From the NCBI RefSeq assembly GCF_036030735.1, contig NZ_CP107928.1:1364001-1428000 (forward strand): a stretch of 64,000 nucleotides of DNA. Direction: 5' to 3'. The position numbers were made by a program, and so were the translations under genes. This DNA is from Streptomyces sp. NBC_00425 (GTDB lineage Bacteria > Actinomycetota > Actinomycetes > Streptomycetales > Streptomycetaceae). Positions 48,302-63,995 of this stretch are shown here, one piece after another (position 1 is the stretch's first letter; each line of letters opens with the position of its first letter). Under the pieces are notes generated by a model, which was given only the letters and a program-made list of their open reading frames with translations, ran no database searches and was not told the DNA's origin.

Positions 48302-49216
48302 TCAGGCGTGGGGCACGACCGCGACCGGTGCGGAGGCGTGCTGGAGCACGGCATGAGTCACCGGGCCGATGCGGCTGCCGATGGAGGCCTGGCGCTTGCC
48401 CCGTCCGACGACGACGAGCGCCGCGTCCCGTGAAGCGTGCACGAGATGACGGCCGGCACCGCCGATGACGGCTTGCGCTGTCACCTCCACGCCGGGGAAC
48501 TTGTCCTTCCAGAGCCGCAGGAGATCAGTCAGTCCGACCTGTGCCTCCTCCGCCAATTCGGCGTTGAGGCCCGAGTCCAGCACGGCACCGTAGCCGTAGA
48601 CGGCCGCCGGATTCCAGCCGTGGATCACTCGCAGACCGGCGGCTCGACGCCGGGCGGCCTCGAACGCGAACTCGATGACAACGTCGGCCGGGTCCTCGAC
48701 GTCCAGCCCGAGAACCACGTCGCGGTACGGAGTGTTCGTCGCCCGCGCACCTGCGGCATCCGGCAGACGCTCATCCTCCGCATGCCCACCGGCTCGCACG
48801 AGAACGACGGGGTGCTCGGTACGCGCCACCACGGCCAGCCCGACAGAACCGACCAGGAACCCGGCCACTGCGCCAAGCCTTCTGGATCCCAGGACCAGCA
48901 ATCCGGCTTCCTCGGTGGCTGCCAGAAGGGCAGGAACAGCCCCCGTCTCCACCTGTTCGGTCGTGACCCGGAGGCCAGGGTGGAGCTCCGTGACCCGAGA
49001 CCTCGCCTCGCGCAGCAGGTCGGCGGCCCACTCTCGCTGAGCGTCGATCACGACCGACGCAGGATCTCCCACGAAAGACAGGTACGTCGAGCGCAGCGGT
49101 TCTCCTGCATGAAGAAGATGCAGGGGCACCTCTCGTTGTGCCGCTTCGCGAGCGGCCCAGTCTGCGGCTGCGAGGCTTTCGGGCGAGCCGTCGAGACCGA
49201 CGGTGATGGCGGACAT
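48302..49216 (-). CDS. Universal stress protein with two Usp domains
   Basis: The 304-residue protein has two Usp folds: residues 1-145 (ITVGLDGSPESLAAADWA, then GLLVLGSRRLGAVAGFLVGSVG with the ATP motif G-2x-G-9x-G-S) and 160-304 (DVVLGLDVEDPADVVIEFA, then VVVGRGKRQASIGSRIGPVTHAVL). Such two-domain proteins are members of the DevR(DosR)/OsdR dormancy regulons of actinobacteria. GAAGGAGG lies seven bases before the ATG. A GGGnC-N4-GnCCC dyad is 60 bp upstream of the start. Confidence 0.93.
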   Translation of the reverse strand: MSAITVGLDGSPESLAAADWAAREAAQREVPLHLLHAGEPLRSTYLSFVGDPASVVIDAQREWAADLLREARSRVTELHPGLRVTTEQVETGAVPALLAATEEAGLLVLGSRRLGAVAGFLVGSVGLAVVARTEHPVVLVRAGGHAEDERLPDAAGARATNTPYRDVVLGLDVEDPADVVIEFAFEAARRRAAGLRVIHGWNPAAVYGYGAVLDSGLNAELAEEAQVGLTDLLRLWKDKFPGVEVTAQAVIGGAGRHLVHASRDAALVVVGRGKRQASIGSRIGPVTHAVLQHASAPVAVVPHA

Positions 49217-49691
49217 GTGCGGACCTCCTTCAGAGATGCCCCGTCAGTCTTCCGAACTGGCCCGGGCGGCAGCAGGGGCCTGAGGTCCCCGTCAGGGGCC
49301 CGACCGGCCCCCACCACCGTGCTGGTGGTGGACGACGACGGACGCTCAGGGGGCGTGGTCTGCGGGGCGGGCCCGTCGTCCAAGGAGGCCGTGCTACTGG
49401 ACTTGGCCGGTCTGCCGCCGGTCTCCCCTGACCGGGTCGTTCGGCCCTGGCGACCGAGGGACCCGCATGATGTGCTGAAGGTGGTGGGAAGGGCGCCCGA
49501 GGGAGACGCGAGAAACGGCCGGAAACGGTCGCGCACCGCGTCATCAGGTCGGCGAGGAGCGGGCGGCGTCCTTCCCTCCCCGCCACGCCGTGCCGCTGTG
49601 AGGCGCCCCGCGATGTGGCTCCGGGACCGGACGGCGCTGACGCACGGACCTGAGCGCTCGGTCACGAACCACCGGGTCCGCCTTGCCCGTC
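49217..49691. other. 475-bp region without a gene between stress-protein and kinase genes
   Basis: No open frame with a recognisable protein is seen on either strand. It contains the control dyads of the stress-protein gene near 49276-49310, a CCACCACC/GGTGGTGG hairpin at about 49311-49331, and one short plus-strand stretch reading TTVLVVDDDG that resembles the start of a receiver domain but continues into nothing recognisable. A lost response regulator is possible but unproven. Confidence 0.4.
49276..49310. promoter_or_regulatory. DevR/OsdR-like dyads upstream of the universal stress gene
   Basis: GGGCC-TGAG-GTCCC (49276-49289) fits GGGnC-N4-GnCCC. A second, imperfect dyad (GGGCC and GGCCC, five-base centre, 49296-49310) is centred 20-21 bp away. 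Confidence 0.55.
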
Positions 49692-51410
49692 CTACGCCTT
49701 CTGCAACGGCACCCGCCACGTCAGCGTGGTCCCGCCGCCCTCGGGTTTCCCGATCTCCAGTCCGCCGGCCAATTTCTCGGCCCGCTCTGCCATGTTGCGC
49801 AGCCCGCTCCGGCGGCCGTCGGCCGGCAAGCCGACGCCGTTGTCGGTGACCGACAGGCGCACCTCGCGGCCGTCCGTGGCCAGGACCACCTCGGCCCGGC
49901 TCGCCCGGGCGTGCCGGGCGATGTTGGTCAGTGCCTCGGAGAGCACGGCCACCACGTGGTCGGCGGTCTCCTTCGGTACGTCGGTGTCCAGCAGGCCTTC
50001 CATCCGCACGCTCGGGGCGAAGCTCAGGACCGGTGCCGCTTCCCCTACGACACGTACGGCACGGGCCCGCAGACCGGCCTCCGCGGTACCGTCGCGGGTG
50101 CGCAACCCGAAGATCGTCGATCTGATGATCTTGATGGTCTCGTCGAGGTCGTCCACCGCGCGCGCCACGCGTTCGGAGGCACCTTCGTGCTCGATGAAAC
50201 GGCCCGCGCTCTGAAGGGTCATGCCGGTGGCGAACAGCCGCTGGATCGCCAGGTCGTGCAGGTCGCGGGCGATCCGGTCCCGGTCCTCCAGCACGGCGAT
50301 CTGCTCGGCGTCCTCGCGGCGCTCCGCCAGCTCCATGGCGACGGCGGCCTGCGCGGCGAAGGCCTGCAACGTCTCGGTCTCCGACTCCGAGAACGCAGGC
50401 CCTCCAGCCTCTCGTGCCAGCAGCACCACGCCTCGTGCGCCCGCCTCGCCCGTGCCGATCGGCACGGCCACGGCAGGGCCGAGTCCACCGAACCTGGGAG
50501 GCTCGAGAGAGATCCGCTCGTCGTGGCCGACATCGGCGCTCGTGACCGGAGCTGCGCCGGCGAAGGCCAGTCCCATGAGGCTCTTGTCCATGGACAGGAC
50601 GAGCCCTCGGTGCGCCCCGGCATCCATCCCGACGGCGATCTCCACAGCGAGCGACCCGGTGTCCTCCATGGGCAGCGCCACCGCCGCCAGCGCGGACTGG
50701 GTGATGTCGCCCGCCCGCTCGGCGATCAGACCGAGGACTTCAGCGCGCTCACCCCCGGACATCAGGCTGTGGGTGATCTCGGCGTTCGCTCGCAGCCAGC
50801 GCTCACGCTGCCGGGACTCGGCGTACAACCGGGCGTTGTCGATCGCGACTCCGGCCGCGACGGCGAGGGTCAGCGTGACCGAGACGTCGTCCTCGTCGAA
50901 CTGGGAGCCGTCCCGTTTCTCGGTCAGGTAGAGGTTGCCGAAAATCTGATCCCGCACGCGGATCGGGACGCCGAGGAAGGTGTTCATCGGCGGGTGGTGG
51001 GCCGGGAAGCCGTACGAGGCAGGGTGATCGGAGATCTTCGCCAGGCGCAGCGGCTCCGGGTGGCGGATCAGCTCGCCCAGAATGCCGTGACCTTCAGGGT
51101 ACGAGCCGATTTCGGCGATCCGGTCCTCGCTGATCCCGACCGTGTGGAAGGCGGACAGGCGCTTTCCGTCCGGTCCGATCACACCGAGCGCCGCGTATTC
51201 GGCGTCGACCAGCACTGCGGCCGCCTCCACGATGCTGCGAAGGGCCTGTTCCAGGTCCAGCTCCCGGCCGACCGCCAGCACCGCCTCCAGCAGGCTGTGC
51301 ACCCGGTCGCGGGTGCCGCGGGCCGCGTCCAGCCGTGCCTGCAGCTCCTCCAGCAGCTCGTCGAGCCGCAGCTGAGGCAGCCGTACGCGGGCTTCCTCGG
51401 GGCTTCCCAC
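49692..51410 (-). CDS. DevS/DosS-like sensor histidine kinase (GAF-GAF-HisKA_3-HATPase)
   Basis: The 572-residue kinase has two GAF domains (about residues 60-205 and 230-370), a HisKA_3 dimerisation domain with phospho-acceptor His385 in [14 protein letters not shown], and an HATPase with N-box [13 protein letters not shown] and G-box [12 protein letters not shown] contains [18 protein letters not shown] (His138/139), matching the part of mycobacterial DevS that carries the heme ligand, so it may sense oxygen, NO or CO. GGAGG lies seven bases before the chosen GTG; a TTG eight codons upstream is the alternative. No response regulator gene is beside it. It is divergent from ppdK. Confidence 0.9.
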
Positions 51411-51530
51411 CGGTGTTCCTCCAGGTCCCCTCAAGCACTCGGACGCCCTCCGGTCCGATCATGTGCCACGTTAGTGCTCGGCCGCAGCGCGCGGTAGCGC
51501 ATGGGGCCGAGTGCACGGTGTTTCCCGCCT

Positions 51531-51565
51531 GGGCCGACCGGCCCCGCGGAGGGGACCGACAGCCC
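51531..51565. promoter_or_regulatory. Tandem DevR/OsdR-like dyads upstream of ppdK
   Basis: GGGCC-GACC-GGCCC (51531-51544, perfect) and GGGAC-CGAC-AGCCC (51552-51565, one half imperfect) have centres exactly 21 bp apart, two helical turns, and end 73 bp before the ppdK start. Confidence 0.6.
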
Positions 51566-63247: not shown

Positions 63248-63287
63248 AACCGTTCGCGGCAGACCTGTGTCGGGCTCTTTTTCCTAT

Positions 63288-63301
63288 GGGCTGAACGGCC
63301 C
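63288..63301. promoter_or_regulatory. DevR/OsdR-like dyad upstream of the Rv1733c-like gene
   Basis: GGGCT-GAAC-GGCCC, one base from ideal, with a further GTCCC half-site at 63320-63324. It lies 121 bp before the start codon. Confidence 0.5.
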
Positions 63302-63422
63302 CGTCCAAAGGCGGAGTTGGTCCCGAGCATCCCCGTGCCGACACCTGGTCGGCCCATGTCGCGCCAGGCTCTCGGCTGTCACCTTCAAAAGCGTCACCAC
63401 GACGACGAGGAGGTGCGGACCG

Positions 63423-63995
63423 ATGACCAGGAGCGAGACCAGGAGGAAGCGGCTGTGGCGGTGGCGGAACAACCCGCTACGGCGGCGTGACGACATCGTC
63501 GAGGCGTGGATCGTGTTGGCGGTGTGGGCCGTCGTCGCCGTGGGTGGCACGGTGGCCGGGCTGGTCACGGCCCATGCAGCAGACGACACGTTCGCACGTC
63601 AACGAACCGACCGGCAGGCGGTACGGGCCGTCCTCCTCGACGACGTGCCACGCACCGCCCTCGCCATGGGCGGCACCGTCGACCGCAGGATGACGGCCGT
63701 GAGCTGGCGGACGCCCGAGGGTTCGCCCCGCACCGATGAAACGCTGGCGGACACGGGTCTCAAAGCCGGAGCACACATCACGGTCTGGCAGGACAGCCAA
63801 GGCCGCCTCATTGCTGCGCCGCCGAGCACGACGGAGGCGACGATCGAGTCGGGCTTCCTCGGCACCGTGGCCGCGGCCTCCCTCGCCGGTCTGGTGTTCG
63901 GCACCGGAGCGGTCGTCCGCTGGCGGCTCGACCGGCGCCGTATCGACCAGTGGGGCCGGGAATGGGATCTGGTGGGGCCGCAGTGGGGCCACTAG
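63423..63995 (+). CDS. Rv1733c-like two-helix membrane protein
   Basis: The 190-residue protein has a basic N-terminus (RRKRLWRWRNNPLRRRDDIVEAW), a membrane helix (residues 27-50, WIVLAVWAVVAVGGTVAGLV), an external domain of about 95 residues (VSWRTPEGSPRTDETLADTGLKAGAHITVW), a second helix (about 147-165) and a short tail. This is the layout of Rv1733c, a DosR-regulated membrane protein of M. tuberculosis with no known activity. AGGAGGTGCGG precedes the ATG. The gene ends five bases before the window edge. Confidence 0.88.
   Translation: MTRSETRRKRLWRWRNNPLRRRDDIVEAWIVLAVWAVVAVGGTVAGLVTAHAADDTFARQRTDRQAVRAVLLDDVPRTALAMGGTVDRRMTAVSWRTPEGSPRTDETLADTGLKAGAHITVWQDSQGRLIAAPPSTTEATIESGFLGTVAAASLAGLVFGTGAVVRWRLDRRRIDQWGREWDLVGPQWGH

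Follow-up and report, generated by a model that had tools for sequence, protein, structure and literature searches.

A probable OsdR/DevR-type island of fermentation and stress genes with paired promoter boxes in Streptomyces sp. NBC_00425

The closest described systems to the locus considered here are OsdRK of Streptomyces coelicolor, known from a 16-bp box (AGGGCCGATCGGCCCT, PMC5069765), and DevR/DosR of Mycobacterium tuberculosis, in which a strong site and an adjacent weak site are used cooperatively (PMC3029386, PMC5360333). S. coelicolor has been called an obligate aerobe (PMC4432287), and in S. lividans genes orthologous to those discussed below rise together with osdR in RNA-seq (PMC6302529). 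Here we analyse a stretch of 64,000 nucleotides (the window), positions 1364001-1428000 of the single-contig 9.8-Mb genome of Streptomyces sp. NBC_00425, and within it the interval 48302-63995, where genes for a universal stress protein (USP), a GAF kinase, pyruvate, phosphate dikinase (ppdK), a CBS-BON protein, AdhE, the flavohaemoglobin Hmp, two PNPOx-family proteins (PNPOx1 and PNPOx2), an HTH-PNPOx protein, a zinc alcohol dehydrogenase (ADH) and an Rv1733c-family protein follow in this order. This interval very probably makes up the left-hand portion of an island of the OsdR (DevR/DosR) type, in which phosphorylated OsdR (OsdR~P) would switch a fermentation and nitric oxide (NO) protection set via tandem boxes. 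The fermentation set bears on a long-standing question, namely how these aerobes survive without oxygen, which is now directly testable.

The shared box and its enrichment in gaps

Judged by its sequence, the motif shared by these promoters is the published OsdR/DevR box, and the box upstream of ppdK differs from that of S. coelicolor at 2 of 16 positions. A symmetric matrix was built from 25 distinct S. coelicolor OsdR sites of PMC5069765, which were themselves matrix-selected and only partly tested by electrophoretic mobility shift assay (EMSA), and none of which comes from this genome. At scores of at least 12, it returns seven sites in the 2,566 bp of gaps of the interval against three in 61,501 bp of background gaps, taken from 400 kb sampled at random from this genome (Poisson 8.6e-11), and a preliminary description of the locus, which had assigned its dyads to the DosR/OsdR kind, is largely borne out. 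The island extends beyond the window, up to window-equivalent position 82516, and the gaps of this continuation hold four more sites in 2,278 bp (Poisson 5.8e-6 against background gaps), while the other gaps of the 143.5 kb scanned hold two in 16,306 bp. Coding DNA contains none in 29,371 bp of the island, one in 92,964 bp of the rest and seven in 338,199 bp of background. The contrast shrinks when the cut-off is lowered to 6, with 17 sites in the interval gaps and 33 in the background gaps.

The simpler dyad GGGnC-N4-GnCCC tells the same story by place. It occurs six times in perfect form in the gaps of the interval (49276, 49434, 51531, 57990, 59396 and 62690) and once in its coding sequence (54837), so that the dyads reported earlier are real and the count of five in gaps has to be raised by one. 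Six in 2,559 bp, compared with seven in 61,624 bp of random gaps, represents an enrichment of about 20-fold (Poisson 6.5e-7), where a hand estimate had already suggested about tenfold. Dyads with at most one mismatch start at 23 positions in the interval gaps, some of them overlapping (9.0/kb versus 2.8/kb in background gaps), and these near matches are, on their own, weaker evidence. In the window as a whole there is no enrichment, with 10 perfect dyads found for 10.4 expected from shuffles (an earlier expectation of about 18 was too high), and genome-wide the perfect dyad is even rarer than its reversed control (746 versus 1,330). As whole-window enrichment is absent, and as the genome-wide total of paired boxes does not exceed its control either, the case is built on where the sites lie, on their density in gaps, on conservation and on their dependence on the regulator.

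Paired boxes and promoter geometry

A second dyad 21-22 bp away had been proposed upstream of ppdK, hmp and PNPOx, and all three pairs are found (51530/51551, 57967/57989 and 59395/59417). The list was nevertheless incomplete: the matrix adds pairs at USP (49275/49296), at ADH (62689/62710), which is missed by the pair pattern with at most one mismatch and visible by matrix only, and at adhE (54999/55019), a pair located inside the end of the preceding CBS gene. With at most one mismatch, the paired pattern occurs in this genome six times at a spacing of 22 (three in the interval; reversed control 6) and seven times at 21 (two in the interval and one in the continuation; reversed control 7). 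Both spacings together make 12 distinct places in 9.8 Mb, one being common to both, and four of them fall in the 15.7-kb interval where 0.02 would be expected (Poisson 5.6e-9), with one further place in the continuation. A control spacing of 27 gives seven places (reversed control 16), none in the interval and one in the continuation, where boxes form an array. For the reversed control the totals are known, the places of its matches not being listed. Since the totals equal the control but four of 12 places lie in the interval, pairs are gathered here rather than commoner genome-wide; a scan for paired sites elsewhere, proposed earlier as a way to refute the idea, thus upholds it for clustering by place and fails to do so for the genome-wide total.

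The same spacing emerges from relatives. Among 499 boxes scoring at least 12, from 28 AdhE loci, 80 OsdR loci and the island itself (a pair in which both boxes reach 12 being counted twice), partners scoring at least 6 number 39, 35, 43 and 19 at 20, 21, 22 and 23 bp, and 0-9 at the other offsets between 12 and 60; in the background, one partner at 20-23 bp was found among 78 boxes scoring at least 9. When flanks are clustered to at most 50% identity, which leaves 278 boxes, 76 partners lie at 20-23 bp against 52 over 45 other offsets, that is 19 per offset against 1.2, with a small second peak of seven at 31 bp. Pairs at 20-23 bp occur in 111 of 724 promoters of island orthologues, in none of 301 background genes and in none of 128 genes of control loci, and the same 724 promoters show a 25-28 bp pair in four cases and a 15-18 bp pair in five. 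The combination of a strong box with an adjacent second one is therefore a trait of a minority of promoters, and osdR promoters are paired in only two of 96. Orthologues of adhE carry the pair in 13 of 29 cases, compared with none of 10 non-island AdhE genes; as the adhE pair, at about -160/-140, also recurs where a different gene is upstream (18 of the loci listed), the CBS coding sequence does not account for it. At ppdK, five of the 13 loci listed have the box at -109/-110.

When promoters are aligned on the proximal box, a NANNNT hexamer peaks 38-40 bp downstream of the box start. In 373 distinct contexts it is counted 102, 88 and 16 times at 38, 39 and 40 bp, and 0-32 times at the other offsets between 16 and 58 (the highest being 32 at 41 bp and 22 at 25 bp); a second peak, shifted by one box step, lies at 59-64. 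Clustering to 196 promoters leaves 35, 45 and 11 (91 of 196) and 0-11 at the other offsets of that range. The controls give 17 counts at 38-40 bp for 233 background boxes, and 23 for the 373 mirrored contexts, 13 of them at 38. The share in register is very uneven between gene families: after clustering it reaches 20/23 for OsdR, 12/16 for PNPOx2, 8/11 for ADH, 6/8 for the CBS-BON gene at window-equivalent 80571, 7/13 for adhE and 6/12 for USP, and is low for ppdK (1/7), PFL (pyruvate formate-lyase, 2/13), the gene at 74606 (2/13), Rv1733c (0/4), the kinase (HK, 0/16) and hmp (0/2). TANNNT, tried first as the -10 element, is absent at 38-40 bp, and the first base of the 91 clustered hexamers is G in 51, C in 32, A in eight and T in none; this missing T is only suggestive because T makes up just 5.9% of such hexamers in background gaps. 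In the genome itself, 26 boxes scoring at least 6 upstream of 13 genes (chosen from 25) were considered, and nine have NANNNT at 38-40 bp, namely those of USP, ppdK, adhE, PNPOx1, PNPOx2, ADH, the Rv1733c-like gene, PFL (counted from a weak overlapping box) and osdR. The element was found after the fact and not predicted. If it does act as a -10 element, the centre of the proximal box would lie near -43, as for class-II activators, and the proximal site of mycobacterial DosR promoters is described at much the same position (PMC5360333, PMC3029386).

The boxes and -10-like elements of the interval are as follows, with matrix scores, positions in brackets in bp relative to the gene start, distances of -10-like elements counted from the start of the proximal (or only) box, and boxes given without strand.

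49246..49251, minus strand: -10-like AAGACT for USP, at 39 bp
49275..49290: proximal box of the USP pair (-74), score 7.5, a perfect GGGnC-N4-GnCCC, partner at 21 bp
49296..49311: distal box of the USP pair (-95), score 13.0
49433..49448: single box 232 bp upstream of USP, score 12.5, no -10-like element at 36-41 bp
51530..51545: distal box of the ppdK pair (-109), score 15.1
51551..51566: proximal box of the ppdK pair (-88), score 7.5, partner at 21 bp
51590..51595, plus strand: -10-like GACGCT for ppdK, at 39 bp
54999..55014: distal box of the adhE pair (-162), inside the CBS coding end, score 11.2
55019..55034: proximal box of the adhE pair (-142), score 7.5, partner at 20 bp
55059..55064, plus strand: -10-like GACGCT for adhE, at 40 bp
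57934..57949: extra box upstream of hmp (-191), score 10.6
57967..57982: distal box of the hmp pair (-158), score 7.5, partner at 22 bp
57989..58004: proximal box of the hmp pair (-136), score 15.0
59395..59410: distal box of the PNPOx1 pair (-153), score 11.8
59417..59432: proximal box of the PNPOx1 pair (-131), score 9.0, partner at 22 bp
59457..59462, plus strand: -10-like GAGAGT for PNPOx1, at 40 bp
60261..60276: isolated strong box, score 16.9, 15 bp beyond the PNPOx2 stop, with no NANNNT at 30-49 bp on either side and no assignable promoter
60806..60821: weak PNPOx2 box (-89), score 6.5, with GAGGAT 38 bp from the box start
62661..62666, minus strand: -10-like CAAACT for ADH, at 38 bp
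62689..62704: proximal box of the ADH pair (-79), score 13.0
62710..62725: weak distal box of the ADH pair (-100), score 6.1, partner at 21 bp
63287..63302: box of the Rv1733c-like gene (-136), score 12.6
63325..63330, plus strand: -10-like GAGCAT for the Rv1733c-like gene, 38 bp from the box start

The genes of the interval have starts set by a simple in-house gene caller:

48302..49216, minus strand: universal stress protein with two Usp stretches (Pfam Usp 4.8e-39)
49692..51410, minus strand: orphan GAF-GAF-HisKA_3-HATPase kinase, DosT/DevS-like by Pfam and structure relatives
51639..54323, plus strand: pyruvate, phosphate dikinase, ppdK (TIGR01828, 1242.2 bits, cut-off 843)
54331..55053, plus strand: CBS-BON domain protein (Pfam CBS, BON)
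55161..57863, plus strand: AdhE, bifunctional acetaldehyde-CoA/alcohol dehydrogenase (NF010378, 1314.8 bits, cut-off 951)
58125..59339, plus strand: flavohaemoglobin Hmp (Pfam globin, FAD and NAD domains; 344.7 bits against NF009805, under its cut-off of 432)
59548..59947, plus strand: PNPOx-family gene 1, frameshifted (Pfam Pyridox_ox_2 on the first part only)
60292..60732, minus strand: PNPOx-family gene 2 (Pfam Pyridox_ox_2, 2e-28)
60846..61520, minus strand: HTH-PNPOx protein (Pfam Pyridox_ox_2, HTH_31)
61540..62625, minus strand: zinc alcohol dehydrogenase (Pfam ADH_N, ADH_zinc_N)
63423..63995, plus strand: Rv1733c family protein (NF050032, 180.5 bits, cut-off 80; no Pfam family matched)

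The second part of PNPOx1 lies, by eye, in a different frame (region 59548-60290), which rules this gene out as an intact target; its promoter retains tandem boxes. The CBS-BON gene at 54331 has no box scoring at least 6 in the 300 bp upstream and is probably read together with ppdK, and the HTH-PNPOx gene, upstream of which no box of its own was found, is a likely downstream member of the ADH operon. These two genes and several beyond the window, without a box of their own, would depend on read-through.

Regulator, kinase and conservation across relatives

The DevR/OsdR homologue lies outside the window, 17 kb past its edge, at 1445326-1446030 of the genome (window-equivalent 81326-82030). 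It is the sole match at E <= 1e-75 in this genome. Among solved structures, M. tuberculosis DevR comes closest (3c3w, E 4.1e-75; next VraR, 5.3e-41), and in that alignment the Asp within VLDVRLPDG is kept, as is EKTVKN in the DNA-binding domain; the orthology of the homologue is taken from matches and structure relatives, without a tree. The near-perfect box AGGGCCGGTCGGCCCT, 97 bp before osdR, scores 20.5, the highest value in the 143.5 kb scanned, so that osdR carries a box of its own, a trait of autoregulation. Universal stress protein genes cluster with the regulator gene, as is usual for OsdR/DevR regulons, and the gene at window-equivalent 71599 also reads as one. About 25 kb beyond osdR, a further strong box (AGGGACCTTCGGCCCC, in L029 at window-equivalent 106883) is identical to a listed S. 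coelicolor site.

For the kinase at 49692-51410, the closest solved structures are GAF domains, those of DosT (2vzw, 1.2e-50) and DevS, and it keeps the His of the HPPM stretch shared with them, which we take to be the heme ligand. It would serve the OsdR homologue. An osdR-osdK operon was considered for this island and does not apply, the kinase of this genome lying about 30 kb away. The same holds for the 80 named OsdR loci (the best 80 of 441; 78 titled Streptomyces and two 'Actinobacteria bacterium OK074'): in none of them does a related kinase gene immediately follow osdR on its own strand, while one is directly downstream on the opposite strand in 11, elsewhere in the locus in 28, and not shown in 41, some of these loci being cut short. 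The opposite-strand kinases of L117, L126, L131, L133, L142, L154, L158, L165, L166, L167 and L174 are 58-62% identical to that of the window and represent a second layout. In L063, L065 and L072, OsdR-like genes of about 76% identity are divergent from ppdK, and several genomes hold two or more OsdR-like genes.

Conservation of boxes was counted upstream of orthologues, excluding genes whose locus extends less than 200 bp upstream of them and matches below 45% identity or 55-60% coverage; loci L089-L098, whose AdhE is 67-70% identical, served as controls and not as island loci. A box scoring at least 12 precedes 87 of 96 OsdR genes, 25/27 ADH, 23/28 orthologues of the gene at 74606, 29/38 PNPOx2, 7/9 Rv1733c, 9/12 ppdK, 13/19 PFL and 9/14 AcsGNAT genes, compared with 3/301 background genes and 5/128 genes of control loci. 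The stress proteins vary (35/55 for USP 73550, 9/21 for USP 48302 and 11/63 for USP 71599). Counts are low for GAPDH (3/13), CBS (4/25), the CBS-BON gene at 80571 (8/78), 72477 (2/30), flavodoxin (1/13), PFL activase (1/20), HTH-PNPOx (1/23), XFP (1/37) and amino-acid kinase (0/20), which fits operon-internal genes or non-members. Among the unlabelled genes of island loci, 179 of 1,065 have such a box.

Does the motif follow the regulator? Of the genus, 150 genomes were compared: an OsdR orthologue (E about 1e-92 or better) is present in 105, absent from 42 and of intermediate status in three, the cut-off having been chosen by eye from a two-humped distribution. The strong box RGGGCCGWWCGGCCCY occurs 215 times in the 105 OsdR genomes (2.05 each) versus 15 times in the 42 without (0.36; Mann-Whitney 8.7e-10), while its reversed control occurs 56 (0.53 each) versus 18 times (0.43; Mann-Whitney 0.09). 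By the strict pattern, 22 of the 105 OsdR genomes are without a strong box.

The fermentation genes follow the regulator as well. Beyond the window, the island holds an intact PFL (L001:12928-15186, 1138.9 bits, cut-off 994), with a box pair at 23 bp in its promoter, and its activase (L001:12185-12922, 309.5 bits, cut-off 231.75), together with a relative of the acetate-CoA ligase alpha subunit (363.6 bits, below the cut-off of 567), a phosphoketolase, GAPDH, a flavodoxin-domain protein and an amino-acid-kinase family protein. The last of these presumably resembles carbamate kinase, Pfam giving only the family. AdhE at 81% identity or more is found in 30 of the 150 genomes (one partial), 29 of which have OsdR, and PFL at 82% or more in 36 (one of them partial and another split in two), 35 of which have OsdR; both occur in 28 genomes. 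More distant PFL and AdhE types follow OsdR less (12/19 and 6/10). AdhE and PFL are thus two marker genes that travel with osdR.

Mechanism, rival readings and known systems

The following mechanism can be proposed. The GAF kinase would most likely sense the loss of oxygen, perhaps also NO, through heme, and phosphorylate the DevR homologue. Two dyads, separated by two helical turns, would each take a dimer of OsdR~P; the strong box would recruit OsdR and the weaker partner be filled cooperatively, and the proximal dimer, centred about 31 bp upstream of NANNNT (about -43), would contact RNA polymerase in class-II fashion. This would switch on ppdK, adhE, ADH, USP and the Rv1733c-like gene, probably hmp and the PNPOx genes, and, beyond the window, PFL, the acetate-CoA-ligase-like enzyme and others, the outcome being a fermentation and NO-protection programme for anoxic survival. 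The sequence itself shows which motif this is, its enrichment and spacing, how the promoters are laid out, the conservation, and that regulator and kinase genes exist; heme binding, phosphotransfer between these two proteins, cooperative filling, activation and the signal are inferred, as is the single hypoxia or NO response for the whole set that was proposed at the outset.

Several observations weigh against this reading. The genome-wide total of pairs does not exceed the reversed control; kinase and regulator genes are far apart; boxes scoring at least 12 are found at only 13 of 44 kinase and seven of 29 adhE orthologues (low for adhE as most of its boxes have scores from 7 to 12); ADH orthologues are paired in only two of 27 cases. 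In the genome itself, the kinase, hmp, AcsGNAT and 74606 genes have no NANNNT in register, although the boxes of the last two are strong, and the hmp proximal box has no -10-like element at 36-41 bp. The association of motif and regulator counts relatives as they come, kinship not being corrected for, and one relative (G024, a 240-contig assembly) has island-type AdhE and PFL where an OsdR orthologue was not found, either because the regulator was lost or because of an assembly gap.

Could the dyads be a product of chance, given 72% GC and a skewed intergenic composition? The whole-window count at shuffle expectation and the unremarkable genome-wide pair total would agree with this, but the gap enrichment was measured against real gaps of the same genome, pairs cluster in the interval, the ppdK box keeps its position in five relatives, and the motif load follows the regulator where its matched control does not; on these grounds chance was rejected and retains a vanishingly small probability. 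It is improbable, though less extremely so, that the boxes are real but serve chiefly some other regulator of the NarL/LuxR family, not the DevR homologue. Related regulators can recognise related dyads, many genomes have more than one OsdR-like gene, and the kinase and regulator are not neighbours here. Yet the single match at the stringent E value lies inside the island with the best-scoring box upstream of it, the motif load tracks the OsdR orthologue, and the sites behind the matrix include several bound by OsdR in EMSA (PMC5069765).

A narrower role for OsdR deserves more weight, even if it is unlikely: OsdR might govern only a core (ppdK, adhE, ADH, USP, the Rv1733c-like gene, PFL and osdR), the boxes of hmp and PNPOx being weak or decaying and hmp being under NsrR. 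The frameshift in PNPOx1 and the lack of a -10-like element at hmp would fit, as would the absence of a box scoring at least 12 at all five hmp orthologues, three of which lie directly behind adhE without a box. Hmp is the least certain member because the S. coelicolor hmp genes studied are under NsrR (PMC4432287, PMC4766573), hmpA genes in the former account. Against the narrower role, the strong hmp box at 57989 belongs to a 22-bp pair, of which the whole genome has only six, and the two relatives with a separate hmp have weaker arrays, one stepped by 21 and 22 bp, the other by 33 and 23 bp.

Returning to an OsdR island with tandem boxes, a broader generalization may be ventured, tentatively and with some doubt: OsdR promoters could form a class with dimers at about -64/-43 and a -10-like element without first T that is silent until OsdR~P arrives, osdR itself being single-box, and this class could drive a mixed-acid-type fermentation set (PFL with activase, AdhE, the acetate-CoA-ligase-like enzyme and PPDK) that makes part of the genus conditionally fermentative. 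The promoter code, made up of a strong box, a partner at 20-23 bp and, 38-40 bp past the start of the proximal box, a -10-like element, lets OsdR targets in Streptomyces genomes be called and oriented.

Compared with S. coelicolor OsdRK as described in PMC5069765, the 16-bp box is the same, a box lies upstream of osdR in both, and the gene kinds (usp, ppdK, PNPOx, zinc dehydrogenase) recur. There, osdR and osdK form an operon, unlike the distant kinase gene here, and the present island carries in addition AdhE and an intact PFL with activase, its boxes being paired at 20-23 bp with a -10-like element at a fixed distance. A paired OsdR geometry was not found described in the main text of that paper ('tandem' and 'spacing' giving no matches) or in the mostly open-access literature searched, although a table of that paper holds one site pair 20 bp apart (SCO0517, -248 and -268), without comment in the accompanying section. 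The OsdR-correlated group of S. lividans (PMC6302529) includes SCO0211 (two-component sensor), SCO0208 (ppdK), SCO0209, SCO0206 (putative PFL), SCO0213 and SCO0199/0200; its PFL activase is reported as an N-terminal fragment, a putative pseudogene, whereas the activase match here is above cut-off. In the NO cycle of S. coelicolor (PMC4766573), DevSR and flavohaemoglobin share one NO homeostasis scheme with Fhb under NsrR, while the flavohaemoglobin gene here has an OsdR-type pair. The pairing matches that of M. tuberculosis DevR/DosR, and the reports on that system (PMC3029386, PMC5360333) also include, as proposed here, a proximal site overlapping the -35 region, Rv1733c as a target and unusual -10 hexamers. 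In contrast, the box here is GC-shifted, the target set is fermentative, and the hexamers are mostly GANGMT or CANGMT-like, the clustered cases never starting with T. Taken together, the kind of system is known, and the paired operator with its -10-like element at a fixed distance and the fermentation cargo extend it.

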